Virus record (IMG/VR): IMGVR_UViG_3300009176_000043
Coordinates: 1-41,999 of that record
Reading direction: 5' to 3' (one strand)
Length of the DNA stretch: 41,999 bases
Origin: a virus
Below are positions 7,179-21,793 of the stretch, in pieces. The notes below the pieces were generated by a model. That model saw nothing but the letters and a program-made list of their open reading frames with translations. It was not told the origin of the DNA and made no database searches. Both the position numbers and the translations under genes were made by a program. Position 1 is the stretch's first letter, and each line of letters begins with the position of its first letter.

Positions 7179-8544
7179 TGCTCTCACGCTGCTCGCGAAT
7201 GCGATTGCCCCGTCTCGGGTGAAATCTATCGAAGGCGAGTATCGCCCAGGCCCGTATTATATCGATGGACCTAATGGTGGCTGGTTGTCAGCACAGGCTG
7301 GCCGGTTTCTGAATTGGTGGCAGATGGGCTATTCGCCACAGTCTCGCGGCTGCGGCGGAGCGATGGTTGAGGCATGCGTCTCCGCATACTCACAAACCGT
7401 TGCTATGTGTCCTGGCGACCATTGGCGATTGCTTCCGAATGGCGGTCGCGAGCGCGTCACGACATCGGCGCTTTCACGAATTATACGGCGGCCGAACGAT
7501 TACCAATCGATGTCGGATCTGTTGCTGAATTTGACTCGGCGACTCTATGAAAAGGGCGAGTGCTACGCTCTCGCGATTCGCGACGGCAGTTTCCAGATTA
7601 AGGAACTGCACTGGATGCGTGACGGCTGCCCGTATGTTGCCGAGGATGGATCTATATTCTATCAGCTTTGGGGAAATGAGGTCGCCGAGCGACGTTTCGA
7701 TCTACATTATCCTATTCCTGCGCGCGACGTGCTTAATGTTAGGCTCCATACTCCGCGTCATCCATTAAAGGGCGCGAGTCCAATTCTGGCTGTTGCGCTC
7801 GAATTGGAGCTGTCTGGCGCGGCTATGTCTCAGCAGATTGCGTTCTACCTCAATCAGGCGAGACCGAGTTTTATCCTCGAAACTGATCAGGAACTTACGA
7901 AGGAACGGGCAAAGGACCTTCGCGACCGCTGGGATGCTCAGACTCAAGGAGACGGTGCTGGTGGCACTCCGATTTTGTCATGGGGTTTGAAGGCCAGGCC
8001 AGTCACGATCGGCGCTGGTGATGCGCGTCTCGCCGATATGTTGAAGCTGGCGAATGAAAGTGTTGCGCTCGCTTTTCGGATGCCATTGCAAATCCTTGGT
8101 ATTGGAGGCACACCGTTCGCTTCTACCGAGGCGCTCATGTCCTCATGGCGGGCAATGGGGTTAGGGTTTGCGCTGAACCATATCGAAGAAGCCTTTGGAC
8201 GGTTATTCGCTCTGGATGGCTATCCGGATGAATATATTGAGTTCGATACTAATGCTCTTTTGCGGTCTTCGTTTAAAGAGATGATTGATGCTTTGGTCGC
8301 AGGAACCCACCGCGTTTTTGCGCCGAATGAGGCACGTCGATTTGTAAATTTGCCCGATGTCGAGGGCGGCGACGAGGTTCGTGTGCAACAACAGGATGTG
8401 CCTCTCTCCTGGATTGCGCAGCAGCCGAAAGCCATTGCCCCGCCAACCGATGCCGGGGTCACAAATAATGAGGGGCGCGCTGCTGATGCCGAGTCTGTCG
8501 TTCGCCGCTTCCGATCAGCCCGCGACCGTGCTCACGCCGCTTGA
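7171..8544 (+). CDS. Portal protein (HK97-type)
   Basis: Forms the dodecameric ring at one capsid vertex through which DNA enters and leaves, and to which the connector binds. The 457-residue length is normal. Family hallmarks: the N-terminal helix region ending in ACVSAYSQTVA, the WRLLPNGGRE hairpin, RPNDYQSMSDLL followed by YEKGECYA, the ARDVLNVRLHTP segment with KGASPI, and the stem/crown region NESVALAFRMP with GIGGTPFASTEAL. ATG 7171 overlaps the small membrane gene. The gene lies about 3 kb after the capsid gene instead of between terL and protease. Confidence 0.93.
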   Translation: MANALTLLANAIAPSRVKSIEGEYRPGPYYIDGPNGGWLSAQAGRFLNWWQMGYSPQSRGCGGAMVEACVSAYSQTVAMCPGDHWRLLPNGGRERVTTSALSRIIRRPNDYQSMSDLLLNLTRRLYEKGECYALAIRDGSFQIKELHWMRDGCPYVAEDGSIFYQLWGNEVAERRFDLHYPIPARDVLNVRLHTPRHPLKGASPILAVALELELSGAAMSQQIAFYLNQARPSFILETDQELTKERAKDLRDRWDAQTQGDGAGGTPILSWGLKARPVTIGAGDARLADMLKLANESVALAFRMPLQILGIGGTPFASTEALMSSWRAMGLGFALNHIEEAFGRLFALDGYPDEYIEFDTNALLRSSFKEMIDALVAGTHRVFAPNEARRFVNLPDVEGGDEVRVQQQDVPLSWIAQQPKAIAPPTDAGVTNNEGRAADAESVVRRFRSARDRAHAA

Positions 8545-10507
8545 CGCGCTTGCCGCCGAGCTTGGCTCCGAAGCGGCGCGCATCGAGCGCGACTTGCGGC
8601 GTGATTTCGCAGTCGGCATGGCTGAAATACGACAGGAATTGGAGGCTGTGCAGCGGCGCGGCGCTGAAATGGAGCTGCGCGCCGCCAATGCCGAACGGGC
8701 ACTGGCCGATGCTGTGCGCGAGCGGCTGGCGGCGGTGCGAAACGGCGAGAGCGTTACGATCGAGGATGTGCGGCCGTTGGTCGAGACCGAGGTCGCCAAG
8801 CAAGTTAATGCGATGCCGAAGTCGCCGGATGCGGAAGCGATTTCGACGATAGTCTCGATACAGATCGAGGCCAGTCTATCGGATATAGCCGAAAGAGCAT
8901 CGGCGCTGGTCGAGCGCCCTGAGTTGCCGATGTTGCCTGATATTGGGGCAATGGTGAGCGAAGAATCCGATCGCCGCGAAGGTGATCTAGTGGCGAAAGT
9001 CGCGGCGCTCGTCCCCGTTCCGGAAGTGGATAAAGCGATTGCCGCAGAATTTGAACGACAGTTGTCCGATGTCGTGATTCGCGCGGTGAAATTGATCCCA
9101 CCCGTTGAATTGCCTGATGTCGGCGCTGCCGTAGCCGATGAATTTGTCAAGCGTGAGAGCGGTGTTGCCGAACGGGCGGCGGCGCTGGTGAAGGTTCCTG
9201 AACCGCCAGACGTGGGGGAGGCAGTTGCGGCGGAGGTGGAGCGTCGTCTCCTCGATATTGCTACAAGATCGGCCGAACTGATCCCCGATGTCGTGACTGC
9301 TGTGGTCGAGGAATTTACCAAACGCGAAGATGCGCTTGTCGAACGGGCGGCGGCGCTGGTGAAGGTTCCTGAACTTCCAGATGTGAATGCGGTCGTTGCG
9401 GCAGAAATGCAGAATCGATTATTCGATATTGCCGCGAGATCGGTTGAATTGATGCCCGATGTCGGCGCTGCCGTGGTCGAGGAGTTTGCTAAGCGCGAAG
9501 ATGCGTTTGTCGAGCGGGCGGCATCGCTAGTGAAGGTTCCGGAAGCCCCGGTACTACCGGATATCGACGCTAAGGTGGACAATGCTGTCGCGGCAGCATT
9601 TCTGACGGTGCGGGTGCCGGAAGATGGTAAGTCCGCTGACCCCGAAGCTACGGCTGATTTAGTTCGTATCAGGGTTGCTGAAGCTCTCGCGTGCGTCTCT
9701 GTGGACATTGTTAGCCCAACTGACGCCGCGGAGATTGCACAGGCCGCGATCGATCGTGCATTGGCAGTTCTTCCTGCGGGCGTCACAATTGACGAGATGC
9801 GTGCTGTCGCCGCGGCCGAGCTTAAACAGCAGTTAGAGGCCATTCCGAAGGCTCTGGACGCCAATGAGATTGGCGACCTGGCGGGCGCAGCGGCCGAGGC
9901 TGCGGTCGGTCGGTATATGCCGGACATTGCTCAGCGAGCGGCCACTTTAATCCCGCCAGCCGAGCCGCTTCCTCTCCCGGATATCGGCGGCTTACTAGAA
10001 GAGAAATTCGCCAGTCACGCTGATGAGATCGCCGCGCGTGCTTCGATGGCGGCAACAGACTCTCTCACTGCCGAGATTGATCGTCTGCTTCCTGAGATAG
10101 CTGCTCGCACGGCGGTCTTAATGCCGCCGGCCGAAATACCGGAGATACCTGATTACAGTCCGATTATCGAGGCGGAAACGGAACGATTGGTGGCTATCAA
10201 GATCGCGGAAATACCGAAACCGCGAGATGGTGCCGATGGTCTTCAAGGGCCAGAAGGTCCGCAGGGAACCGTTGACAAAGTTGAGCTTCGCCAAGCCGCC
10301 GCGGCAGCAACAGAAGATCACCTTATAGTGCCGGAGCATATGCTTGGACTTATCGGTCGGGTAGGAGAGTTGTTATCGCAACCATTTGCAGTGGCACTAG
10401 ACACGCATTCCGCCCCTGCCGTTTTACCGCGCCGTAAGATCATTAAAACAAAACGCGACCCCGATGGGAACTTGACTTACGACGTGACAGAAGTTTCCGA
10501 GAGTTGA
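8468..10507 (+). CDS. Repetitive fibre-like structural protein with collagen-like end
   Basis: About 679 residues from ATG 8468, with GGGGT 8 nt upstream; ATG 8486 after GAGGGG is an alternative. Both overlap the portal end, and the open frame reaches back to 8357. The N-terminal 120 residues are a charged helix. The middle carries four copies of a 57-59-residue helical repeat (9002-9560) with core ERAAALVKVPE-x-PDV ... EEF-x-KRE. Further degenerate AA-x-LIPPAE segments continue to about 10150. The C-terminus has a short collagen-like GADGLQGPEGPQG stretch, followed by a compact end domain. Repeats plus a collagen tract suggest an elongated fibre or whisker on the head or neck; that is inference, and no named family is recognised. 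Confidence 0.65.
   Translation: MRGALLMPSLSFAASDQPATVLTPLDALAAELGSEAARIERDLRRDFAVGMAEIRQELEAVQRRGAEMELRAANAERALADAVRERLAAVRNGESVTIEDVRPLVETEVAKQVNAMPKSPDAEAISTIVSIQIEASLSDIAERASALVERPELPMLPDIGAMVSEESDRREGDLVAKVAALVPVPEVDKAIAAEFERQLSDVVIRAVKLIPPVELPDVGAAVADEFVKRESGVAERAAALVKVPEPPDVGEAVAAEVERRLLDIATRSAELIPDVVTAVVEEFTKREDALVERAAALVKVPELPDVNAVVAAEMQNRLFDIAARSVELMPDVGAAVVEEFAKREDAFVERAASLVKVPEAPVLPDIDAKVDNAVAAAFLTVRVPEDGKSADPEATADLVRIRVAEALACVSVDIVSPTDAAEIAQAAIDRALAVLPAGVTIDEMRAVAAAELKQQLEAIPKALDANEIGDLAGAAAEAAVGRYMPDIAQRAATLIPPAEPLPLPDIGGLLEEKFASHADEIAARASMAATDSLTAEIDRLLPEIAARTAVLMPPAEIPEIPDYSPIIEAETERLVAIKIAEIPKPRDGADGLQGPEGPQGTVDKVELRQAAAAATEDHLIVPEHMLGLIGRVGELLSQPFAVALDTHSAPAVLPRRKIIKTKRDPDGNLTYDVTEVSES
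9002..9560 (+). repeat. 171-bp tandem coding repeats
   Basis: Tandem units with 171-bp period (177 bp for the first), in frame, inside the fibre-like gene. A 35-bp block starting CGAACGGGCGG is identical at 9169-9203 and 9340-9374, and diverged at 9511. The unit is 57 residues. Near-identity of two units suggests recent duplication or homogenisation. Confidence 0.8.
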
Positions 10508-12634: not shown

Positions 12635-13351
12635 ATGGCGTTTTCTCATAGCCGACATTCCACTCATGAGAATGGCGCCGGCTTCACTCTAACATGCGCC
12701 GTGACGCTCGCCTCTACAGTCAAGGCCAGCAGTCTTGTTTTGGTGTCAGTCGGATGGGCAAGTAATCCTGGAGATACTTGCTCTATAGCTGACGATAAAG
12801 GAAATAATTACACTCTTGTTGATCTGCTGAGATCCACGGCTTCAGGTTATACTTGGCAGACCGCGTATCTTGATGGCGTTACAAACGCCCCAATAACGAT
12901 TACAGCAACGATGATATCCGCCACCCGGCAGTTTATTTCTATTATCGTTGGCGAATATACCGGAGGGCTGGGCGGATCTTCCCTTAATGGTCACGCTATA
13001 AACGCGCAAACTAATCCCGCGACAACAGCTAATGCGCTCACCTCGACAAACTTCACGCCGACCGCAAATAATTCATTGATATATGGTTCGCTAGTTGACG
13101 CTAGTAGTATTGGTGCCATTTCAGCAGGGACGAATTACACTCTTCGTTTGAATAACAGCAGCAGCAGTTTTGATATGGAAGACAAAACATTAGCGGTTGC
13201 CGCTGCTGGTGCCGCTACGTTCACAACTGCAACAAGCGGCGCGAGCGCTTTTTTTGTGACCGGAGGCTTGGCTATAAAGCCGTGGATTTCTATGGTCAAC
13301 AGGGCAGTGAATATACAAACTCAATCTAATAGTCGCGCGTCTTTTTGGTAG
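12635..13351 (+). CDS. Putative virion surface protein, beta-sandwich
   Basis: A 238-residue Ser/Thr/Ala-rich, beta-dominated protein. Features include alternating hydrophobic strands (SSLVLVSVGWA; FISIIVGEYTGG), a DDKGNNYTLV hairpin, and a final TTATSGASAFFVTGGLAIKP motif. This layout is typical of immunoglobulin- or lectin-like sandwich domains of phage surface proteins, although no catalytic or sugar-binding residues can be assigned. Start ATG 12635 with a weak ribosome site. It lies between small virion genes on the head side of the operon, so a head-surface or fibre role is plausible. Confidence 0.55.
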   Translation: MAFSHSRHSTHENGAGFTLTCAVTLASTVKASSLVLVSVGWASNPGDTCSIADDKGNNYTLVDLLRSTASGYTWQTAYLDGVTNAPITITATMISATRQFISIIVGEYTGGLGGSSLNGHAINAQTNPATTANALTSTNFTPTANNSLIYGSLVDASSIGAISAGTNYTLRLNNSSSSFDMEDKTLAVAAAGAATFTTATSGASAFFVTGGLAIKPWISMVNRAVNIQTQSNSRASFW

Positions 13352-13897: not shown

Positions 13898-15085
13898 ATG
13901 GCTCGGTTTGGCCGCTCATTCCCGATCTCTGGCATCTCGATTAAGCATGGTCTTAGTCAAGCAGTCGCTAAGTCCGTCGTTGCTGATGCCGGTTCCTATA
14001 GTCTAACCGGCACGGCCGCAACGCCGAAATGGGACCGGAAAGTTGTCGCGGCCTCGGGCGCTTACGCCTTTACCGGCGCTACCGTTGCAATTCGCCGAGA
14101 TTTCCGTCCGTCAGCCGGCGCCGGTTCCTATGCCGTCACCGGCACGGCGACATCGGTATTACGTGGCCGGAATTTGTCGGCCACCTCGGGGTCTTACGCG
14201 CTTACTGGCTTCGCGGCCTCACTGTTTCATGGATGGCGGGTCGCGGCAGCCGCAGGTTCCTACGCTGTTACTGGAACCACAGCGACGCTGACGCGTCGTT
14301 TGCCGATGACTGCCGATGTCGGGGCTTACGTCCTGACTGGATCGGCAGCATCGCTCGCACGCAATCTGCCGCTTACGGCGGGTGCCGGCTCATACGCTCT
14401 GACCGGCTCCGCCGCCTCGCTATTGCACGCGTGGAAGGTATCCGCCGAGAGCGGCGCCTATACTCTAACCGGCTCCGCCGCCTCGCTCCTCGAAATTTCA
14501 CAAAAAGCTGTTATAGCCGAGGCGGGCTCTTATTCCCTAACGGGCACGGCGGCATCTCTTGTACATAAGAAAATAGCGTCAGCCGGCGCTGGTGTTTACG
14601 ATTTCCTCGGGTCAACGGCAACCCTGACACGGCGACTACCGATTACCGCGGGAATCGGAAGTTACTCTCTTAGCGGCAGCGGAGTTTCTCTTCTCAAGAC
14701 CGTCCGTTTAGGGGCGGTTGCTGGCGCTTACAATCTCACTGGAACCAGTGCTTCCCTGCTTCGGGGCGCTCGTTTAGTGACCACAGCGGGATCTTACGTC
14801 CTAACCGGAAGTCCCGCATTACTCATCGCCAGCGGGGCGGCCCAAGACGCAGCGGCCGACGGCGCAATTTGCACTGTCACGGCAACGCTGCTACCGGGCA
14901 CTGTCACCGTCAGTTCTATTATCGGCGCTCTGGAGCAGGATGGGATCAGGTCAAGACGGCAGCGCCATGATGCACATGTACTTGGTTCAATACTCTATCT
15001 TCGTACATCATTACATCCCGGCGCGGCTAATGGCGAAGATAATTTAACGGATGAAGAGTTAATTCTTATGCTTGAGGCTGCTTAA
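13898..15085 (+). CDS. 13 x 22-residue repeat protein (AGSYxLTG), adhesin/fibre-like
   Basis: A 395-residue protein: residues 1-28 lead in, about 31-313 are thirteen tandem repeats of about 22 residues with consensus AGSY-x-LTG-S/T-AASL followed by about 8 variable, often basic residues, and residues 315-395 form a distinct C-terminal domain (TVTVSSIIGALEQDG ... LTDEELILMLEAA). The regular Tyr and Thr-Gly spacing suggests a stacked beta-hairpin or solenoid fibre. Start ATG 13898 has GGGAG 9 nt upstream; the stop overlaps the next ATG (TAATG). Such repeats are seen in surface and phage proteins of alphaproteobacteria. The fibre function is inference. Confidence 0.68.
   Translation: MARFGRSFPISGISIKHGLSQAVAKSVVADAGSYSLTGTAATPKWDRKVVAASGAYAFTGATVAIRRDFRPSAGAGSYAVTGTATSVLRGRNLSATSGSYALTGFAASLFHGWRVAAAAGSYAVTGTTATLTRRLPMTADVGAYVLTGSAASLARNLPLTAGAGSYALTGSAASLLHAWKVSAESGAYTLTGSAASLLEISQKAVIAEAGSYSLTGTAASLVHKKIASAGAGVYDFLGSTATLTRRLPITAGIGSYSLSGSGVSLLKTVRLGAVAGAYNLTGTSASLLRGARLVTTAGSYVLTGSPALLIASGAAQDAAADGAICTVTATLLPGTVTVSSIIGALEQDGIRSRRQRHDAHVLGSILYLRTSLHPGAANGEDNLTDEELILMLEAA
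13988..14836 (+). repeat. 66-bp tandem coding repeat array, 13 copies
   Basis: Thirteen in-frame units of about 66 bp (two of them longer) encode AGSYxLTG repeats. At the DNA level the units are diverged, keeping the Tyr, Thr-Gly and Ala-Ser codons, so this is an old, selected repeat and not a recent expansion. Confidence 0.85.
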
Positions 15086-15732
15086 TGTCGGCGAACAAGT
15101 ATAGCATTTGGCACGCACTTGAGTTGGCGATCCGGCTTGCCGTGCGAGCCAATGAAGAGGTTCGTATCCTTGCGTCTCGCTCGATCGCTGGGCCGAAAGG
15201 TGATCCGGGCGAGCGTGGGCCTGATGGTCAGCCTGGTACGCCGGGCAAGCTGCCCATCGCCCGCGCATGGGCAGAGGGCGTTCATTATGAGGGTAGCGCA
15301 GTTACGCATGTGGGGGCGACGTGGCAGGCGTTACGAGATACTGGTCACGAGCCTCCGCATGATGATTGGATTTGTCTAGCGTTGCCGGGCGTGCCTGGAG
15401 AATCCGGGAAATCGTCAAAAGTATGCGGCACATACGATTCATCCCGTCAGTATTCTGAGCTTAATATCGTGGCTGTTAATGGGGCGACATTTATTGCGAA
15501 AGTGAATAATCCCGGCCCATGTCCAGGTAATGACTGGCAACTGATGTCGGCGGTTGGTAAGCGAGGCGAAAAAGGTGATCGTGGCGAGCAAGGGATGAGA
15601 GGAAATCCTGGTTTGCCGGGGCCTGGAGTGAAATCGCTCGTTGTAGATGGGGATGGCCTTTTAACTGTGATTAACGGCGACGGGTCTATAGTTACTTGTG
15701 ATCTCTATCCTGTGTTGGCGAAGATCCGATGA
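15085..15732 (+). CDS. Collagen-like tail/head fibre protein
   Basis: A 215-residue protein with three collagen-type Gly-x-Y tracts: residues about 36-54 (GPKGDPGERGPDGQPG), 101-109, and 158-181 (GKRGEKGDRGEQGMRG onward). Between the tracts are two small carbohydrate-binding-module-like domains: one with WAEGVHYEG ... GATWQALRDT ... DDWI, and one with GTYDSSRQY ... GATFIAKV ... DWQLM. This W/Y pattern is like the short chitin-binding-type modules found in phage fibres. A trimeric fibre with glycan-binding beads is the likely form. Start and stop overlap neighbours (TAATG, ATGA), so it belongs to one translational unit with the connector gene. Confidence 0.78.
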   Translation: MSANKYSIWHALELAIRLAVRANEEVRILASRSIAGPKGDPGERGPDGQPGTPGKLPIARAWAEGVHYEGSAVTHVGATWQALRDTGHEPPHDDWICLALPGVPGESGKSSKVCGTYDSSRQYSELNIVAVNGATFIAKVNNPGPCPGNDWQLMSAVGKRGEKGDRGEQGMRGNPGLPGPGVKSLVVDGDGLLTVINGDGSIVTCDLYPVLAKIR

Positions 15733-16406
15733 ACAATGATGTCGTCATCGTCACGGCTTCCGAGTTTACAATGCTAACAACGCTTGAGCGGGTCAAGCTG
15801 GAGCTGGATATTAAGAACGATACCAATAATGATCTCTTGAGCGCTCGTATTGCTTCAGCGTCTTCTGTGATCGACGGGCTATGTTTTCCGTCGCTGAAGC
15901 GCGAGACTGTCATCGAGACGTTTTACCCGGATCATTATGGCGAGTGCGCGGACAGGTTGACGCTGAACCATAGCCCGGTGGTGTCGATTAGCAGCGTCAC
16001 CGTAGATGGCACCGCACTGACTGATGCTGTGATTGTTGATGATGTCGTGACCGAACTTGCCGAGTGGCGTCTTGACGGCGAGAAGCTGCGGCTCCGTAGG
16101 CAAACGACCGCGGGTCGTCATTCCCATTGGTCGTTTTGTACAAGCATCGTTGTCTCTTATGTGGGCGGCTACCTACTTCCTGGACAGGCGGGCAGAGACC
16201 TTCCATACGAGATCGAGGACGCCTGCGTTGAGCTTGTTGCAGCTTATTGGGCTGCCCGCGGGCGAGACCCTGGGTTGCGGGCAGAGGAAAATGTTGGAGT
16301 TTATAGGTTTGAGTATCAGACTACTGTAAATGGATATGATTACCCTGTACCGAAAGGGGTAATGGACAAGCTCGATCGGTATTTACGAAAAGAGATGGTG
16401 CTGTAA
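15729..16406 (+). CDS. Head-tail connector (gp6-like adaptor)
   Basis: A 225-residue protein fitting the gp6/gp15-like adaptor family that docks under the portal. The N-terminal helices (LTTLERVKLELDIKNDTNNDLL) with SARIASASSVIDGLC are the family signature. A beta part with FYPD ... LNHSPVVSISSVTVDG follows, then VVSYVGGYLLPGQAGRDLPYEIEDACVELVAAYW, where the YxGG-PxxLP-x-x-I-x-x-A motif is typical. A C-terminal arm ends in a helix (MDKLDRYLRKEMVL). ATG 15729 overlaps the fibre stop. It marks the head side of the head-tail junction, which is then interrupted by the glycan cassette. Confidence 0.85.
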   Translation: MNNDVVIVTASEFTMLTTLERVKLELDIKNDTNNDLLSARIASASSVIDGLCFPSLKRETVIETFYPDHYGECADRLTLNHSPVVSISSVTVDGTALTDAVIVDDVVTELAEWRLDGEKLRLRRQTTAGRHSHWSFCTSIVVSYVGGYLLPGQAGRDLPYEIEDACVELVAAYWAARGRDPGLRAEENVGVYRFEYQTTVNGYDYPVPKGVMDKLDRYLRKEMVL

Positions 16407-16428
16407 AACGAATGGTTGCAAAAATATA

Positions 16429-17157
16429 ATGAAGCATCTCTCGTTTGTTATGGCGTATTACATGAACCCGGTCATGCTCGCATATCAATACGACGTATGG
16501 GCCTCATATCCGGATAATCTAAAAGAACGGATTGATGTAGTTCTTGTTGATGATGGCAGTCCATCGGAATATGCGATCACGGTTCCTCGTCCGGATAATC
16601 TTCCGCCACTGAGAATCTACCGTGTACTAGTCGATAAGCCGTGGAACCAACACGGTGCCAGGAATCTTGGGGCGCGCGAGGCCGAGGGGCCGTGGCTATT
16701 CCTAACGGATATGGATCACGTTCTTTCTGCCGAGAGCCTTGAGCGGCTCCTTGAACGACGTAACGAGAATGTCGTTTATATGTTTGCTCGCGTTGACGCG
16801 CCAGATATGACGCCAACGCGGCGTCACGATGGAACAATGAAGCCGCATCCTAACACGTTCGCCATGACCAAAGAAATTTATTGGAAGATTGGCGGATACG
16901 ATGAACGGTTTTGTGGAATTTACGGAACAGATAGCTTGTTCCGATCGCGAGCGGCGGCTCTCGCAAAATTCAGACATTTGGACGACGTACCAATCATTCG
17001 GTATTCGCGCGAGATTATTGCTGATGCCTCGACTCGGACTTTGGCTCGCAAAGAGGGTCGCAGTGACGCAAAGCGTCGCTTGCTGGCGAAGATTGCCGCT
17101 GAGGGTAGCGTCGATAAAACAGAGACGCTGAAGTTTCCGTGGGAACGCGTGCTGTGA
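16429..17157 (+). CDS. Family 2-type glycosyltransferase
   Basis: A 242-residue GT-A fold enzyme that should transfer a sugar from a nucleotide-sugar donor. Signatures: VVLVDDGSP (D41, D42) at the end of the second strand for the nucleotide, QHGARNLGA (about 74-82), and the metal-binding DMD at 94-96. The acceptor side has NTFAMTKEIYWKIGGYDERFCGIYGTD, the usual Gly-Gly-x-Asp-Glu motif. No membrane span, so it is cytoplasmic. First gene of a five-gene cassette; its stop overlaps the next start as GTGA. Donor and acceptor cannot be told. There is no strong ribosome site and only a TATAAT overlapping the ATG. Confidence 0.87.
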   Translation: MKHLSFVMAYYMNPVMLAYQYDVWASYPDNLKERIDVVLVDDGSPSEYAITVPRPDNLPPLRIYRVLVDKPWNQHGARNLGAREAEGPWLFLTDMDHVLSAESLERLLERRNENVVYMFARVDAPDMTPTRRHDGTMKPHPNTFAMTKEIYWKIGGYDERFCGIYGTDSLFRSRAAALAKFRHLDDVPIIRYSREIIADASTRTLARKEGRSDAKRRLLAKIAAEGSVDKTETLKFPWERVL

Positions 17158-17726
17158 TCCAGATCGATGCCCGAGGTCACGATCTTACGGTTGTTGCCTT
17201 CTCCGGCATGGCATCGAAAAACCGAATATACGAATGGACTCGGAGTTTTGATGGAGTCAATGCTAATTTCATCGGGGTTCGGGATGACGCCCGGCGCTGG
17301 TATCAATTTGAAACGTCTGACATTACTGAGGTCGTTCGTCGCGCTGTTGTGCGGGCGGGCGGCGCTCGAGTCATGACGATCGGGGCCTCAGCGGGCGGCT
17401 TTGCGGCGCTGCTGTTTGGTCGCATCTTGCAGGCTGATCGTATTCTGGTGTGGTCGCCACAGTCGGCCTGTGGGGCTGCAAAGCGGGCGCTGGGCGACGA
17501 CCGCTGGCCTGACCTATGCAATTCGACGCCATCCTTTGATCTGGAGGACGTGTATCCGGAGGCTGTCGTGCATGTCGCCGCTGACGACCTAATGGATATG
17601 ATGCACGCGCGCCGGCTGACGCCAGGTCGTCTGATCATCCATCCGGGTGGCGGGCACAATCTGCCGACTATGCTCAAGGAGTCTGGCGAATTGCGGTGGA
17701 TTTTGGACGAGGCGGTTGCTGCGTGA
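17154..17726 (+). CDS. Alpha/beta-hydrolase-fold protein in glycan cassette
   Basis: A 190-residue protein from GTG 17154 (GTGA overlap with the glycosyltransferase); an upstream in-frame GTG at 17139 is possible. A nucleophile elbow GASAGG places Ser at residue 79, an acidic candidate is D144/D145 (HVAADDLMD), and the catalytic His is H168 in HPGGGHNLP. The segment order (strand VVAFSGM, helix, elbow, acid, His) fits an esterase or acyl-transfer alpha/beta hydrolase. Small hydrolases of this kind occur in polysaccharide loci, where they may remove or transfer O-acyl groups. Its neighbours support work on a glycan. The substrate is unknown. Confidence 0.72.
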   Translation: MIQIDARGHDLTVVAFSGMASKNRIYEWTRSFDGVNANFIGVRDDARRWYQFETSDITEVVRRAVVRAGGARVMTIGASAGGFAALLFGRILQADRILVWSPQSACGAAKRALGDDRWPDLCNSTPSFDLEDVYPEAVVHVAADDLMDMMHARRLTPGRLIIHPGGGHNLPTMLKESGELRWILDEAVAA

Positions 17727-18391
17727 ACATCGTCTCGTTCCTCGCGCCGCGCCAAGATCATCCGCGCTGGAATGACATTTATTTTGATCTGCTTGAGATC
17801 CTCGATCGCTCGTGCCGCCATCTTGGCCTTCGTCATGTGGTACTGACTGACGATCCGATGCTACCGCATGGCGAGCTATTCTGCCGGCCTCTACCGGCTG
17901 ATCTGATGCAGGCCGCGACACAGGCGCACTTTGAATGGCTCGCTCAAGGCGATTGGCGCGGTAGCGATACATGCTTTGTTGGCGTTGACTGTATCGCTCT
18001 CCAAGATCCAACGCTTGCGTTATGCGGCAAGTTCGATATGGCCGTTACCTATCGTGACGCGCGTGCGAGATACCCAATAAATACCGGGATGATCTATATC
18101 TCGGCTAACGCACGCGAGCGTGCTCGGGCGCTATTCAAGCGGGTTGCTGATCGCACCGGAACAACGTGGTGTGACGATCAGCGGGCAATACAGGCTGAAC
18201 TAGCGCCTATGCCAGATAGTCATGGCATCCACGACCGCGCGATGATGAAGGTCGGTTTCATACCGATGTTCTTATTTAATGAACGGCCGGATGGGCTTTC
18301 CCCAATGCCAGGCCGCATCATGCTCCATTTTCGTGGGAAGATAGAGCGCAAGAAGCAGATGGTTGAATGGGCAGCGAAGTGGATAAAGTAA
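17723..18391 (+). CDS. Glycosyltransferase, GT8-like
   Basis: A 222-residue protein starting at GTG 17723, overlapping the previous stop as GTGA. It has the layout of GT-A enzymes of the GT8 or related type: VVLTDDP near residue 40, then the DxD-equivalent FVGVDCIALQDP with D89, then the INTGMIYIS stretch that follows the metal site in this class, and a C-terminal HFRGK that would contact the donor phosphates. No membrane segment. As third member of the cassette it probably adds a further sugar. Sugar identity cannot be read from sequence. The 3' end overlaps the acetyltransferase gene by 25 nt. Confidence 0.72.
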   Translation: MNIVSFLAPRQDHPRWNDIYFDLLEILDRSCRHLGLRHVVLTDDPMLPHGELFCRPLPADLMQAATQAHFEWLAQGDWRGSDTCFVGVDCIALQDPTLALCGKFDMAVTYRDARARYPINTGMIYISANARERARALFKRVADRTGTTWCDDQRAIQAELAPMPDSHGIHDRAMMKVGFIPMFLFNERPDGLSPMPGRIMLHFRGKIERKKQMVEWAAKWIK

Positions 18392-19071
18392 TTGATACTG
18401 ACGACGCGCTGAAGGTCCGCCTTTCGATGGACGGCTATGCCCGGTTCCCGAACGGGGCAATGGTTCACAGGACCGCTGTGGTAGCCTCCTGGGTATCGCT
18501 TGGACCAGACTGCATCGTGCATCCCTTCGCGGTTGTTGGGCGCATTCCAAGCCGTAGCCGGTCACTCGCTCGCCAGCCTGCTGCTGCAGAACATCTGGAG
18601 ATTGGCTCCCGAACAGCGATTGGCTGTCACGCCGTCGTTTTTGCGGATGTCGATATTGGCAAGGATTGCCTGATTGGCGATTTCTCTCTGATTCGAGAAG
18701 GAACTTTGATCGGAAATCTATGCGTCATTGGATGTCATGTTTCGATCAGCTATGATTGCGAAATTGCCGATCGTTGCGTGTTCCAAAATAGCACTGTATT
18801 CCACGGATCATGTGGTGAAGGCTGCTTTTTCGGAGTCGGCGTTGTCTGTTCGTCTGACCGTCGAGTCGATCTTGATAATTATGCTCATCACGGTTCAACG
18901 CCTCCTATTATCGGCAAGCGCGTCATGATTGGTACTGGCGCTAATCTGATTGCTGGGATCAAGATTGGTGATGGCGCTAGGGTCGCTGCTGGTGCTATCG
19001 TTACGAAGGATGTCCCAAGCCAATGTTTGATGATTGGTCAAGCAGCATCAATACGTCATGTTCAAATCTAA
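18367..19071 (+). CDS. Hexapeptide-repeat O-/N-acyltransferase
   Basis: A 234-residue left-handed parallel beta-helix protein of the LpxA/CysE-like superfamily. Hexad steps with I/V/L at every sixth position are clear from about residue 35 (AVVASWVSLGPDCIVHPFAVVG) through EIGSRTAIGCHAVVFADVDIG, DCLIGDFSLIREG, CVIGCHVSISYDCEI, and the final turns KRVMIGTGANLIAGIKIGDGARVAAGAIVTKDV. That end motif is typical of acetyltransferases using acetyl-CoA. H200-type residues in NYAHHG are candidates for catalysis. Start ATG 18367 overlaps the upstream gene by 25 nt; ATG 18427 is an alternative. Probably acetylates a sugar made by the cassette. Confidence 0.85.
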   Translation: MGSEVDKVIDTDDALKVRLSMDGYARFPNGAMVHRTAVVASWVSLGPDCIVHPFAVVGRIPSRSRSLARQPAAAEHLEIGSRTAIGCHAVVFADVDIGKDCLIGDFSLIREGTLIGNLCVIGCHVSISYDCEIADRCVFQNSTVFHGSCGEGCFFGVGVVCSSDRRVDLDNYAHHGSTPPIIGKRVMIGTGANLIAGIKIGDGARVAAGAIVTKDVPSQCLMIGQAASIRHVQI

Positions 19072-19783
19072 TGAACTGTTAACCGTGCTCGTTTGGCTCT
19101 GGGCACAGCCGGATAGTTTCGGTGATTACACAGCGTATCATGTCAACGTATTTGCAGATATGGTGCGACGTAATCTGTCCATTCCGCACCGTATAGCCTG
19201 CGTAACCGATATTCCCGAGGGAATTGATCCTAGCATTACGATAATTCCTTCTCCTCGGGAATTTGAGGATGTACGTATTCCGACATGGAGAGAGCATAAG
19301 CCGCAATGCTTGCGGCGGCTCTCGATGTTCCGGAGAGATGCCGCAGAAATATTTGGACAACGTTTTGTCTGTATGGATCTCGATTGCGTAATTTCTGGAA
19401 CACTCGATTCACTATTCGAGACAGACGTGCCATTCAAGATGGCTTGCGGGACTCGCGAGGGCAGGCCGTACAATGGATCGATGATGCTGATAACCGCTGG
19501 ATCTCGGCCGCAGGTTTATGAGCAGTTTACCCCCGAGCGCGCCGTTGTGGCTGGCAAAAGATTTCTTGGCTCCGACCAGGCATGGATAAGCTACATCCTC
19601 GGGTCAGGAGAGCCAACGTGGGGTTCGGAGGATGGTGTGTGTTGGAGGGATTCTCCACTTCCTCAAGAGCAACGTCGTATTACGTTTTATCCGGGATCAC
19701 CTAAGCCGTGGGAAATTATTAAGTTTAACCCAAATAATTGGATAGCTAAGCACTATAGTCGCAGTATGACGGAGATAATATGA
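19058..19783 (+). CDS. Glycosyltransferase with DLD motif (phage-type)
   Basis: A 241-residue protein from ATG 19058, whose first codons overlap the acetyltransferase end; TTG at 19034 is an alternative. It shows the pattern of a phage and bacterial GT family: NVFADMVRRNLSIPHRIACVTD, LRRLSMFRRDAAEIFGQRF, then the metal site CMDLDCVI (D107, D109), and RPYNGSMMLI. The end WEIIKFNPNNWIAKHYSRS resembles the His-containing C-terminal end of GT-A enzymes. Cytoplasmic. Last glycan gene; its stop overlaps the next ATG as ATGA. It shows the cassette has three different transferases, enough for a short branched oligosaccharide. Confidence 0.8.
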   Translation: MFKSNELLTVLVWLWAQPDSFGDYTAYHVNVFADMVRRNLSIPHRIACVTDIPEGIDPSITIIPSPREFEDVRIPTWREHKPQCLRRLSMFRRDAAEIFGQRFVCMDLDCVISGTLDSLFETDVPFKMACGTREGRPYNGSMMLITAGSRPQVYEQFTPERAVVAGKRFLGSDQAWISYILGSGEPTWGSEDGVCWRDSPLPQEQRRITFYPGSPKPWEIIKFNPNNWIAKHYSRSMTEII

Positions 19784-20280
19784 AACGCATTATTGTTTCT
19801 GTACTTGCGTTCGGCTTACTGGCCGCCACGCCCGCGCTCGCTTTCACGGGCCGCATTATCAATTTGGGTGATGCCGCGGTGTCGGCGGCAGTCACAAACC
19901 AGGTAATTACGAGCAGCGTATCGGCGCAGAGCGTAGCGATTGCATATGTGGATCGGCTGGAAGGCGCGCAGGCGCTTACATTCGAGGCAAATTTTACATG
20001 GGGTGCTGGTGGCACTACGTTGAAGGTTGACCTTGAGACTTCTGTCGATCAAGGAACGAGCTGGTTGCCGATCTGCCGCATTGCGTTCACGACAGCAAGC
20101 GCACTAAAGGTTGTTAATATTTCCGGTCTTACGCCGAAGATTGCGGCGATAACTCCGGCTGTTCCTTCGGATGACGCATGTACCGATGGTATAATTGGAG
20201 AACGGTTTCGTGTGCGGATTACGAGCGTCGGTGTGTACACTGGAAATACATTAGTTTCGACGCGTGCGGCAGTACGCTAA
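19780..20280 (+). CDS. Signal-peptide-bearing beta-rich protein
   Basis: A 166-residue protein beginning with a classic Sec signal: MKR, a hydrophobic core IIVSVLAFGLLAA, and a TPALA cleavage site before F22. There is no lipobox Cys. The mature part is beta-rich, with ALTFEANFTWGAGGTTLKVD, a VDQGTSWLPICRI segment and RFRVRITSVGVYTGNT, resembling single-domain virion proteins except for the signal. ATG 19780 overlaps the last glycosyltransferase stop (ATGA), so it is coupled to the cassette. It may reach the periplasm as a surface or exclusion protein, or the leader may be vestigial on a virion protein. Confidence 0.68.
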   Translation: MKRIIVSVLAFGLLAATPALAFTGRIINLGDAAVSAAVTNQVITSSVSAQSVAIAYVDRLEGAQALTFEANFTWGAGGTTLKVDLETSVDQGTSWLPICRIAFTTASALKVVNISGLTPKIAAITPAVPSDDACTDGIIGERFRVRITSVGVYTGNTLVSTRAAVR

Positions 20281-20628
20281 ATGCCCGTCGAGCGAACAAA
20301 ATCCCTTTATGCACGAACGCTGAAGGAAACCGTCTTTATTCGCCGTTACACCGGCAGCGGTCCGAACAGGCCACTCTTCGACACGCCGGCCAGGGCGCGC
20401 GTCATGGGATACCAGCCCCATGAACTTGTTGGCACGATCCAGCAGGGCGACCGTAGGGCAATCGTATTCGTACCGGACCTCGTAGATGCTGGCTTCGCGC
20501 TACCCGTGACGAGCAACGACAAGCTCGTAGTGCGTGGGCGCGAGCTCACGATAATGACTCCCGATGACAACACCCGACGTGATGAGGATGAGCTGATTGC
20601 GTTGGAATTGCAGGTCAGAGGTCAATAA
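20281..20628 (+). CDS. Putative head closure (stopper) protein
   Basis: A 115-residue protein starting at ATG 20281, directly abutting the preceding stop. The N-terminal pair of strands (LKETVFIRRYTG) is followed by the central GDRRAIVFVPDLVDAGF and a C-terminal block DKLVVRGRELTIMTPDD ... DELIALELQVRG. This resembles SPP1 gp16/lambda FII-type closure proteins, in which a hydrophobic beta-barrel with a DGREY-like hairpin seals the connector. The position between the connector and neck/terminator genes supports the call. Identification is by pattern, not by search. Confidence 0.6.
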   Translation: MPVERTKSLYARTLKETVFIRRYTGSGPNRPLFDTPARARVMGYQPHELVGTIQQGDRRAIVFVPDLVDAGFALPVTSNDKLVVRGRELTIMTPDDNTRRDEDELIALELQVRGQ

Positions 20629-20632
20629 TTCG

Positions 20633-20926
20633 TTACAGTGGTCGGCTAATTACATATCCCCGCTCCCTCAGAGTAGAAATTAACTGCGCGTCTGTGAAAT
20701 TCTTAATATCACTGAATGCGATAATGTCATTAGCATACAAGAAATCCATTACGAGCTTTTCTGTTTTCTTTCCAAAATTGCCGCCTTTCCATAGCAGACT
20801 GATGACCTTCTGAGGGTCATCTGCTAACGCTTTCGATGGCGTGTCATAGCCAGCTCTCATGAGGCACCAAACTGCGCGAGTGTTCAGGCACGTCAAGCGC
20901 CACGCTGGGTGAAACGATGTGTCCAT
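20633..20926 (-). CDS. RNA polymerase alpha C-terminal-domain-like protein (antisense)
   Basis: The only convincing minus-strand gene in the window: 97 residues, ATG at 20926-20924, TAA at 20635-20633, with AGG 5 nt before the ATG. Residues about 12-65 read like the helix-hairpin-helix alpha-CTD of bacterial RNA polymerase: CLNTRAVWCLMRAGYDT corresponds to the conserved L-S-x-R-x-x-N-C-L-x-x-x-x-I-x-T helix region, and GGNFGKKT corresponds to the P-N-x-G-K-K-S-L turn. A second helical segment (NDIIAFSDIKNFTDAQLISTLRERGY) follows. It fills an otherwise empty 331-bp gap between head-closure and neck genes. It could bind DNA or alpha-CTD partners and reprogram transcription; this function is inference. 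Confidence 0.68.
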   Translation of the reverse strand: MDTSFHPAWRLTCLNTRAVWCLMRAGYDTPSKALADDPQKVISLLWKGGNFGKKTEKLVMDFLYANDIIAFSDIKNFTDAQLISTLRERGYVISRPL

Positions 20927-20959
20927 TTTAGCCTGTTTCCATTAGTCGAAGAGCCGATT

Positions 20960-21643
20960 ATGGCACGCTCCGCATTCGCGCGCACGATCCAGCTTCAGCT
21001 TGATAAATACTCTCCTGAGCAAGCGCGGATCAAGCATATCGAAATTGCCCGTAAGGGATTTGCCGCATTCTACGCGAGGCAAGAGGTTAAGCCTGAATAT
21101 ACCTTAGAAGTGGATGGGCATCCGGCTACATCCGAGGATGAGGTTAAGCAATATGGGATTATTGTTTATAAATTTAATAGACTGGGTGAGGTCGCGCAAT
21201 TTGCGTTGGATGTTCTGATTGTTCGGGTTCGTAAGTTCTATCCTGGTAAGGATGAGAAAAGCTATATCAACAACTTCTTTGTCGGAATCAACGGCAAGTT
21301 CATTGATGCGGAAGACTTCGATCCAAAACTTGTTCCGCCTCGCGCTGAAATCATTATCGGGAATAAGGTTCCGTTCAATCGTAAACTCGACGTTCAGCGT
21401 GTCGGGGGCGAGGTTCTTTCATTTAAGATACCGGCAGGTCTATTTGATTTAGCTGCTCTCGTTGTAACTCGTGAGTATGGCAAGATAGTAACTGTTAAGC
21501 GCAGCTATAATATACAACATCCAGATAAGCACGAGTTGATTCGAGAGCAGGAATACCTTTCAGGACCGCGCAAAGGCAAATCGCGTAAGCGGGCTGGAAC
21601 GCTTGTCGAGAGTCCGGGGCTGGTGATTGTGTCGAGGGTGTAG
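20960..21643 (+). CDS. Putative neck/head-tail joining protein
   Basis: A 227-residue protein from ATG 20960 with GAAGAG upstream; the frame is open from 20909, inside the antisense gene region, but the extra codons look non-coding. It begins with a helix (ARTIQLQLDKYSPEQARIKH), then TLEVDGHPATSEDEVKQYG and a hydrophobic helix-strand LGEVAQFALDVLIVRVRKFYPG, followed by SYINNFFVGINGKFI, and ends in a basic Arg/Lys-rich tail. Location between head closure and tail terminator suggests a gp10-like joining or neck role. The family is not named with confidence. A conserved virion protein is the safe statement. Confidence 0.6.
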   Translation: MARSAFARTIQLQLDKYSPEQARIKHIEIARKGFAAFYARQEVKPEYTLEVDGHPATSEDEVKQYGIIVYKFNRLGEVAQFALDVLIVRVRKFYPGKDEKSYINNFFVGINGKFIDAEDFDPKLVPPRAEIIIGNKVPFNRKLDVQRVGGEVLSFKIPAGLFDLAALVVTREYGKIVTVKRSYNIQHPDKHELIREQEYLSGPRKGKSRKRAGTLVESPGLVIVSRV

Positions 21644-21793
21644 ACAAGTAAATGGTCCCCGGATTCGAACCGGCGCTTGTCGCGTACATCGACTCCTGAA
21701 GCGCTATTTGGAGATGATGCCGATAGCGACGTAAGGGACAAATTCCCTGTCACTCCAGATCTTGATCTATAGCGGAACATAAGGCGGTAGTCA

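Follow-up and report, generated by a model that had tools for sequence, protein, structure and literature searches.

A candidate virion-glycosylation cassette within the head-neck operon of a tailed phage

Why would a tailed phage encode a set of sugar-modifying enzymes amid the genes for its head and neck? The question is raised by a 41,999-nucleotide (nt) stretch of viral DNA, positions 1 to 41,999 of IMG/VR record IMGVR_UViG_3300009176_000043 (the window, meaning this whole stretch), in which five genes, termed G1 to G5, lie between structural genes. An earlier reading of the same DNA, made without database searches (the sequence-only reading), suggested that these genes glycosylate and O-acetylate virion proteins. 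We consider it fairly probable that they form a cassette for virion glycosylation, and that this tailed phage carries it as exchangeable cargo at a recurrent slot in its head-neck operon. The host is probably an alphaproteobacterium, since relatives of the neck genes lie in alphaproteobacterial genomes. Virion glycosylation is favored because such cassettes are repeatedly placed in head and neck operons, because their genes almost entirely lack membrane segments, and because phage Corndog offers a precedent.

The five genes are open reading frames (ORFs) on the same strand, located exactly at 16429-19783 as originally proposed, and the overlaps described between them are likewise present. Using the likely start codons, the junctions are GTGA at 17154 and 17723, 13 nt at 18379, and 14 nt at 19058, and the gene at 19780 overlaps the G5 stop by 4 nt. 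The G+C content of the cassette is that of its surroundings, and matches to consensus promoters and terminators across 15600-21700 were fewer than in shuffled sequences, which leaves separate transcription of the cassette unsupported. Together, these features make the cassette look like part of the neck transcription unit. Its upstream border is a head-tail adaptor gene (Ad; 15729..16406, + strand; phrog_442 E 1e-27, PF05135) and its downstream border is the head closure gene Hc1 (20281..20628, + strand; phrog_161 E 8e-5). The cassette had been placed exactly between the connector and head closure, which holds for both borders, except that a further gene (19780..20280, + strand) intervenes before Hc1. 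In locus L098, where no glycan genes separate Ad from Hc1, the homologue of this gene lies in that interval, and 19780-20280 therefore belongs to the neck module. Its product begins with a signal-peptide-like hydrophobic N-terminus (MKRIIVSVLAFGLLAATPALA), which would be odd for a cytoplasmically assembled neck and is missing in the L098 homologue.

Three of the five genes encode glycosyltransferases (GTs), as had been proposed, and the evidence comes from a family match for G1 and from modelled folds for G3 and G5. G1 (16429..17157, + strand) is a GT2-family enzyme, scoring above the cut-off for PF00535 (E 7e-12) and carrying both acidic motifs, VDDGS and TDMDH; its residues D41, D42, D94, and D96 are invariant across 18 homologues. 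Searches of Pfam, PHROGs, and NCBIfam, at the thresholds applied, gave no family match for the products of G2, G3, and 19780-20280. G3 (17696..18391, + strand; likely start GTG 17723) has homologues at 35-48% identity and, by its predicted fold, is a GT-A glycosyltransferase. Its AlphaFold (AF2) model, built on five sequences, has a pLDDT of 82, and the top matches among solved structures are the capsid glycosyltransferase of the algal virus PBCV-1 (2p72, Z 16.5 over 185 residues, root-mean-square deviation 3.3), human LH3 (Z 15.5), and mimivirus R699 (14.8). No sequence-level match of G3 to solved structures was found, so the resemblance is one of fold only; G3 and the PBCV-1 enzyme, A64R, share 14% identity and their acceptors are not comparable. 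That the best fold match of G3 takes part in capsid glycosylation nevertheless counts in favor of virion glycosylation. The “VDC” motif once assigned to G3 is not a strict DxD, but corresponds to G-x-D-C in its relatives. G5 (19034..19783, + strand; likely start ATG 19058, or 19034), usually the last gene of such cassettes, matches phrog_1962 (E 6e-7), and its AF2 model (mean pLDDT 94) shows a GT8-type GT-A fold with a DxD motif (D107, D109) that is invariant in 57 sequences. Its best solved relatives, LgtC (Z 17.3), glycogenin (17.1), and Skp1 galactosyltransferase (16.8), are effectively tied. Many G5 family members, such as L096:9992-10924 and those of L017, L018, and other loci, also have a C-terminal extension of ~65 residues (RCLVLGYxPSVW...), which the G5 of the window lacks. 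By eye, the G5 of L006:2383-4296 is fused to an apparent ATP-grasp domain, and the long G5 proteins of L069, L074, and L076 may be fusions as well.

The remaining two genes presumably act on acyl groups. G4 (18367..19071, + strand; likely start GTG 18379, or 18367) is a left-handed-beta-helix (LbH) sugar acyltransferase, with a match to PF00132 (Hexapep; E 3e-23) above the cut-off, which bears out the hexapeptide acyltransferase predicted for the cassette. The predicted O-acetylation did not find the same support: the top solved matches of G4 include N-acetyltransferases (a WxcM-like protein and QdtC), and it matches the NeuD family at E 1e-22, yet below the NeuD cut-off, so that G4 may be either an N- or an O-acyltransferase. 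G2 (17139..17726, + strand; likely start GTG 17154) is a small alpha/beta-hydrolase-like protein and a candidate esterase or acyltransferase. Its relatives are too few for a structure to be modelled with depth, and the putative hydrolase identity comes from triad-like residues: S84, the presumed nucleophile within GASAGG, D149, and H173 are all invariant in three distant chromosomal homologues (L185, L186, and L188). The alpha/beta-hydrolase fold attributed to G2 would fit these conserved residues; Pfam gave no match.

A set of this composition could also serve the host surface. Late in the infection, or in a lysogenic host, the cassette might modify a glycan of the host surface, lipopolysaccharide (LPS) or capsule, and thereby prevent re-adsorption to debris or exclude competitors. 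The sequence-only reading named this as the main alternative and it remains the main rival, although we regard it as unlikely, if the likeliest reading after virion glycosylation. Members of the GT2, GT8, and acyltransferase families are frequent in loci for LPS and capsule; LgtC, the closest fold match of G5, is a lipooligosaccharide enzyme; the chromosomal relatives of G2 adjoin genes that by eye are apparent glycosyltransferases; and one related cassette includes a heptosyltransferase-like gene. However, genes for a flippase, polymerase, GtrA/B, or oligosaccharyltransferase were not seen. A simple hydropathy scan detected hydrophobic segments in none of G1-G5 and in very few genes of related cassettes, where the 352 genes upstream of G5 yielded 16 entries with a hydrophobic stretch, some of them double-counted. 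The placement of the cassette inside neck and head genes also argues against a surface role, as does the distinction seen in phage D3 between its seroconversion enzymes (O-acetylase, polymerase, and iap; PMC12373910) and its neck gene orf7.

Placement of this kind is not peculiar to the window. A profile search of IMG/VR confirmed 337 relatives of G5, of which 80 were kept for comparison; wherever the contig is readable, G5-type genes lie mostly in head or neck operons. Here, genes were called with a simple caller of our own and clustered by BLAST (the cluster names Ad35, Ad72, Ad87, MT, and CL are our own labels); non-redundant counts were made at 90% identity, and contigs of the same lineage are not independent, which was only partly corrected. 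Among 70 non-redundant copies of G5, the next gene is the portal gene in 23, mostly with an overlap of 1-4 nt, and in 4 more the portal gene follows by way of a small gene. In about 15-17 of the 70, the next gene was assigned as Ad, Hc1, gp10, or a relative of the gene at 19780. Another sugar-related or methyltransferase gene occurs at most six genes upstream in 39 of the 70. A control sample of 80 loci was chosen independently, by portal protein, and is not wholly unbiased, since the portal profile was derived from G5-bearing loci. Two recurrent slots were evident, one between the major capsid protein (MCP) and portal genes and the other between Ad1 and Hc1. The first interval was readable in 65 loci and contained a gene of >=140 amino acids in 19 of them; most of these inserts represent G5 cassettes, and gene-calling artefacts probably account for a few. 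The second, which is the position occupied in the window, holds glycan-type genes in 7/53 readable portal-sampled loci (L109, L116, L143, L144, L156, L158, and L166), with PHROGs confirming Ad1 in L143 and L144 and Hc1 in L143 and L158. In most loci both slots are empty, providing natural empty sites. The nearest G5 relatives of the window lie in the portal slot, and the best G5 tree implies eight slot changes, only two of which are forced by well-supported branches. Such recurrent slots mark sites in the head operon where phages tolerate cargo.

Tolerance of cargo invites a different explanation, namely, that the five genes are unrelated morons accumulated at a permissive insertion site rather than one pathway. 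In its favor, HNH-like and other cargo also occurs near G5, gene order varies among loci, and no G2 relative was found beyond the same contig among the phage loci examined. The linkage of G1 to G5 speaks against it. Of 63 non-redundant G1 loci, 34 have G5 immediately after G1 and 19 more have it at most five genes away, always one to five genes downstream in these 53 linked loci; of the remainder, five are truncated and five are without G5. Furthermore, many of the cargo genes around G5 relate to sugars, and the set of G1, G3, and G4 is found again in different slots. L018 is the one complete locus where this combination ends in G5 (MCP, G1, G4, a short ORF, G3, G3, G5, portal), and similar orders are found in L225 (TerL, MCP, CL5, G1, G4, G3, G3, and then the contig end), L200 (G4, G3, G3, G5, portal), L080 (G4, G3, G3, G5), and L198/L216 and L204 (G1, G4, G3). 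The cassettes of L018, L200, and L225 adjoin MCP or portal. A search for all five genes together is therefore answered in part, as combinations of G1, G3, G4, and G5 recur, but G2 does not. On balance, an assemblage of unrelated morons appears improbable.

The G1 and G5 families each comprise hundreds of members in environmental phages, and clustered cassettes are not rare, which differs from the view that phage glycosyltransferase genes usually occur as scattered single genes or integrase-side operons. Elsewhere, they are sparse. G5 matches were found in 4 of 50,697 phage records (EBPR siphovirus 3, two records of Tetraselmis viridis virus S20, and SI1), and a GTDB scan identified six loci, in Sphingobium, Sphingomonas, Bosea, Bradyrhizobium, a Rhizobiaceae metagenome-assembled genome (MAG), and a Cloacimonadota MAG. 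In the Bosea, Sphingomonas, and Rhizobiaceae MAG genomes, G5 is single-copy and inside a phage-like locus. A prophage of Sphingomonas sp. Root720 carries the G1-G5 pair, whereas that of Bosea sp. WAO has only G5. Among 385 sampled alphaproteobacterial genomes, a close G5 occurs only in Bosea, the centre of the sample, and distant relatives occur in eight, mostly outside any recognisable phage module. G1 was detected in none of the 385 genomes at E 1e-20; as a positive control, one match each came from the genomes of Sphingomonas and Bradyrhizobium in which G1 is known to occur. Around this pair, related cassettes carry S-adenosylmethionine (SAM) methyltransferases, a phosphoribosyltransferase-like protein, a TupA-like ATP-grasp protein, GT-D, sialyltransferase-like proteins, an FkbM methyltransferase, and a sulfotransferase-like protein that falls just below its cut-off. 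It is conceivable, and we offer it as a tentative proposal held with less confidence than virion glycosylation itself, that the phage-specific G1 and the GT8-like G5 are the core pair of a virion-glycosylation system that is widespread and previously undescribed, has hundreds of members in environmental phages, plugs into recurrent head-operon slots, and swaps its tailoring genes as a capsule locus does. If so, the glycans on phage particles would diversify in the way that O-antigens of hosts do.

How might virion glycosylation proceed? The cassette genes would be made late, together with the neck proteins. During assembly, the soluble glycosyltransferases would draw on nucleotide sugars of the host and form, within the cytoplasm, a short glycan attached to a protein of the head, neck, or fibres. 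G4 would acylate a sugar, and G2 may add or remove an acyl group. The resulting glycan would shield the particle or tune its adsorption, and variation of the upstream cassette genes would vary its structure. Phage glycosyltransferases are also known for DNA hypermodification (discussed in PMC12619734), and the enzymes could instead glycosylate phage DNA bases. This seems very unlikely, as a neck-operon location would not be expected and PF00303 (thymidylate-synthase/hydroxymethylase-type), the sole family tested, matched control genomes but not the 92-kb IMG/VR contig IMGVR_UViG_3300026023_000352, a possibly partial record to which the window is 100% identical across all parts compared.

Head and neck placement, soluble enzymes, and the Corndog precedent thus make virion glycosylation the best-supported part of the original proposal; its choice of acceptor, the O-acetylation, and the supposed rarity of such clusters fared less well. 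The fibres encoded upstream had been suggested as acceptors, and the window does encode a collagen-like/CBM-like fibre protein (15085..15732, + strand; PF01391 E 5e-7) just before Ad. However, 76 of the 80 portal-sampled loci have a collagen/CBM fibre gene, and only 28 of the 80 have a G5 match; fibre genes occur with or without the cassette and show no association with it, although fibre proteins may still serve as acceptors. Several further observations weigh against virion glycosylation. Firstly, in the same 80 loci no gene was specifically tied to the cassette as an acceptor. Secondly, for about one quarter of G5 copies, no virion gene was recognised at a distance of up to five genes, many of these copies being on contigs that are short or divergent. 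Thirdly, fold similarity does not fix the acceptor, as the lipooligosaccharide specificity of LgtC illustrates, and a glycan on the virions of this phage group is a prediction from gene content. Lastly, phage P1 can do without pmgO and pmgQ, which are related to companion genes, under laboratory conditions (PMC10695390), and any benefit would therefore be conditional; this fits a particle coat needed only under some conditions, but it is no proof of one.

The rest of the window encodes a tailed-phage structural module: TerL (361), a fused protease/major head protein (2185), portal (7171, its ORF ending at 8544), the tail terminator (21794), the major tail protein (22320), and the tape measure (23982). 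An ORF at 8357-10507 (+ strand) overlaps the end of the portal ORF by 188 nt, its true start probably being further downstream, and BLAST matches it to fibre genes located after portal in relatives. The collagen-like gene is preceded by 13898-15085 (+ strand), which encodes ~ten tandem AGSYxLTGTAASL-type repeats with no family match; this Ser/Thr-rich protein is a candidate glycan acceptor. The gene at 12635 was considered as a sixth glycosyltransferase and rejected, its PF13524 match being far below the cut-off. Between Hc1 and the gene at 20909, a 97-amino-acid ORF on the - strand (20633-20926) resembles by eye an RNA-polymerase alpha C-terminal or helix-hairpin-helix domain, with no Pfam match.

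Were virion glycosylation confirmed, it would prove to be common in phages of alphaproteobacteria, and probably in others, as a modular trait that is quick to diversify. It would bear upon adsorption and particle stability, and would supply many unstudied enzymes for cytoplasmic protein glycosylation. In the literature surveyed, virion glycosylation of tailed phages has been demonstrated experimentally only for a few mycobacteriophages.

Among known systems, serotype conversion by gtr/oac similarly employs phage glycosyltransferases and acyltransferases. Those systems depend upon membrane GtrA/GtrB or a membrane O-acetylase, neither of which was seen here in the hydropathy scan. Tetraselmis viridis virus S20 has homologues of G1 (46%) and G5 (39%) in a block of about nine genes directly before Hc1, although annotated sialyltransferase, glycosyltransferase, and methyltransferase genes replace G2-G4; no functional study of the S20 cassette was found in the literature. 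Relatives of the sialyltransferase-like and phrog_1962 glycosyltransferase genes of the Ad1-Hc1 slot are found in the pmgO/pmgP/ppp/pmgQ genes of P1, all four of which are nonessential (PMC10695390), and in orf7 of D3, which sits between MCP and Ad1, but these are not the same families as G1-G4. A close precedent is the Corndog type. In Corndog and its relatives, the cassette (gp35-gp38 in Corndog) is placed between the portal and protease genes and comprises an O-methyltransferase, two glycosyltransferases, and a putative N-acetylglucosaminyltransferase; capsid peptides were poorly recovered (PMC4351075). Two later papers, both citing Freeman 2023, report that the Corndog-type capsid and tail tube are glycosylated (PMC11600133, PMC12363180). 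We compared gene maps of this type via Firecracker (gp33-gp36) and Dylan. Like them, the window carries an overlapping cluster of two or more soluble glycosyltransferases inside an operon of virion genes. Firecracker gp35 reaches 31.8 bits with the G1 profile, a score that could stem from common membership of the GT2 superfamily and nothing more, and G2, G3, and G5 have no significant match in this comparison. Unlike the window, the Corndog type has an actinobacterial host, occupies a slot between portal and protease, and features an O-methyltransferase; the window has no methyltransferase, and instead has an LbH acyltransferase and a hydrolase-like protein. Glycosylation of phage particles is thus already reported for the Corndog type, and by analogy the G1-G5 cassette may represent the same strategy in a different slot, in a different host, and with a different set of enzymes.

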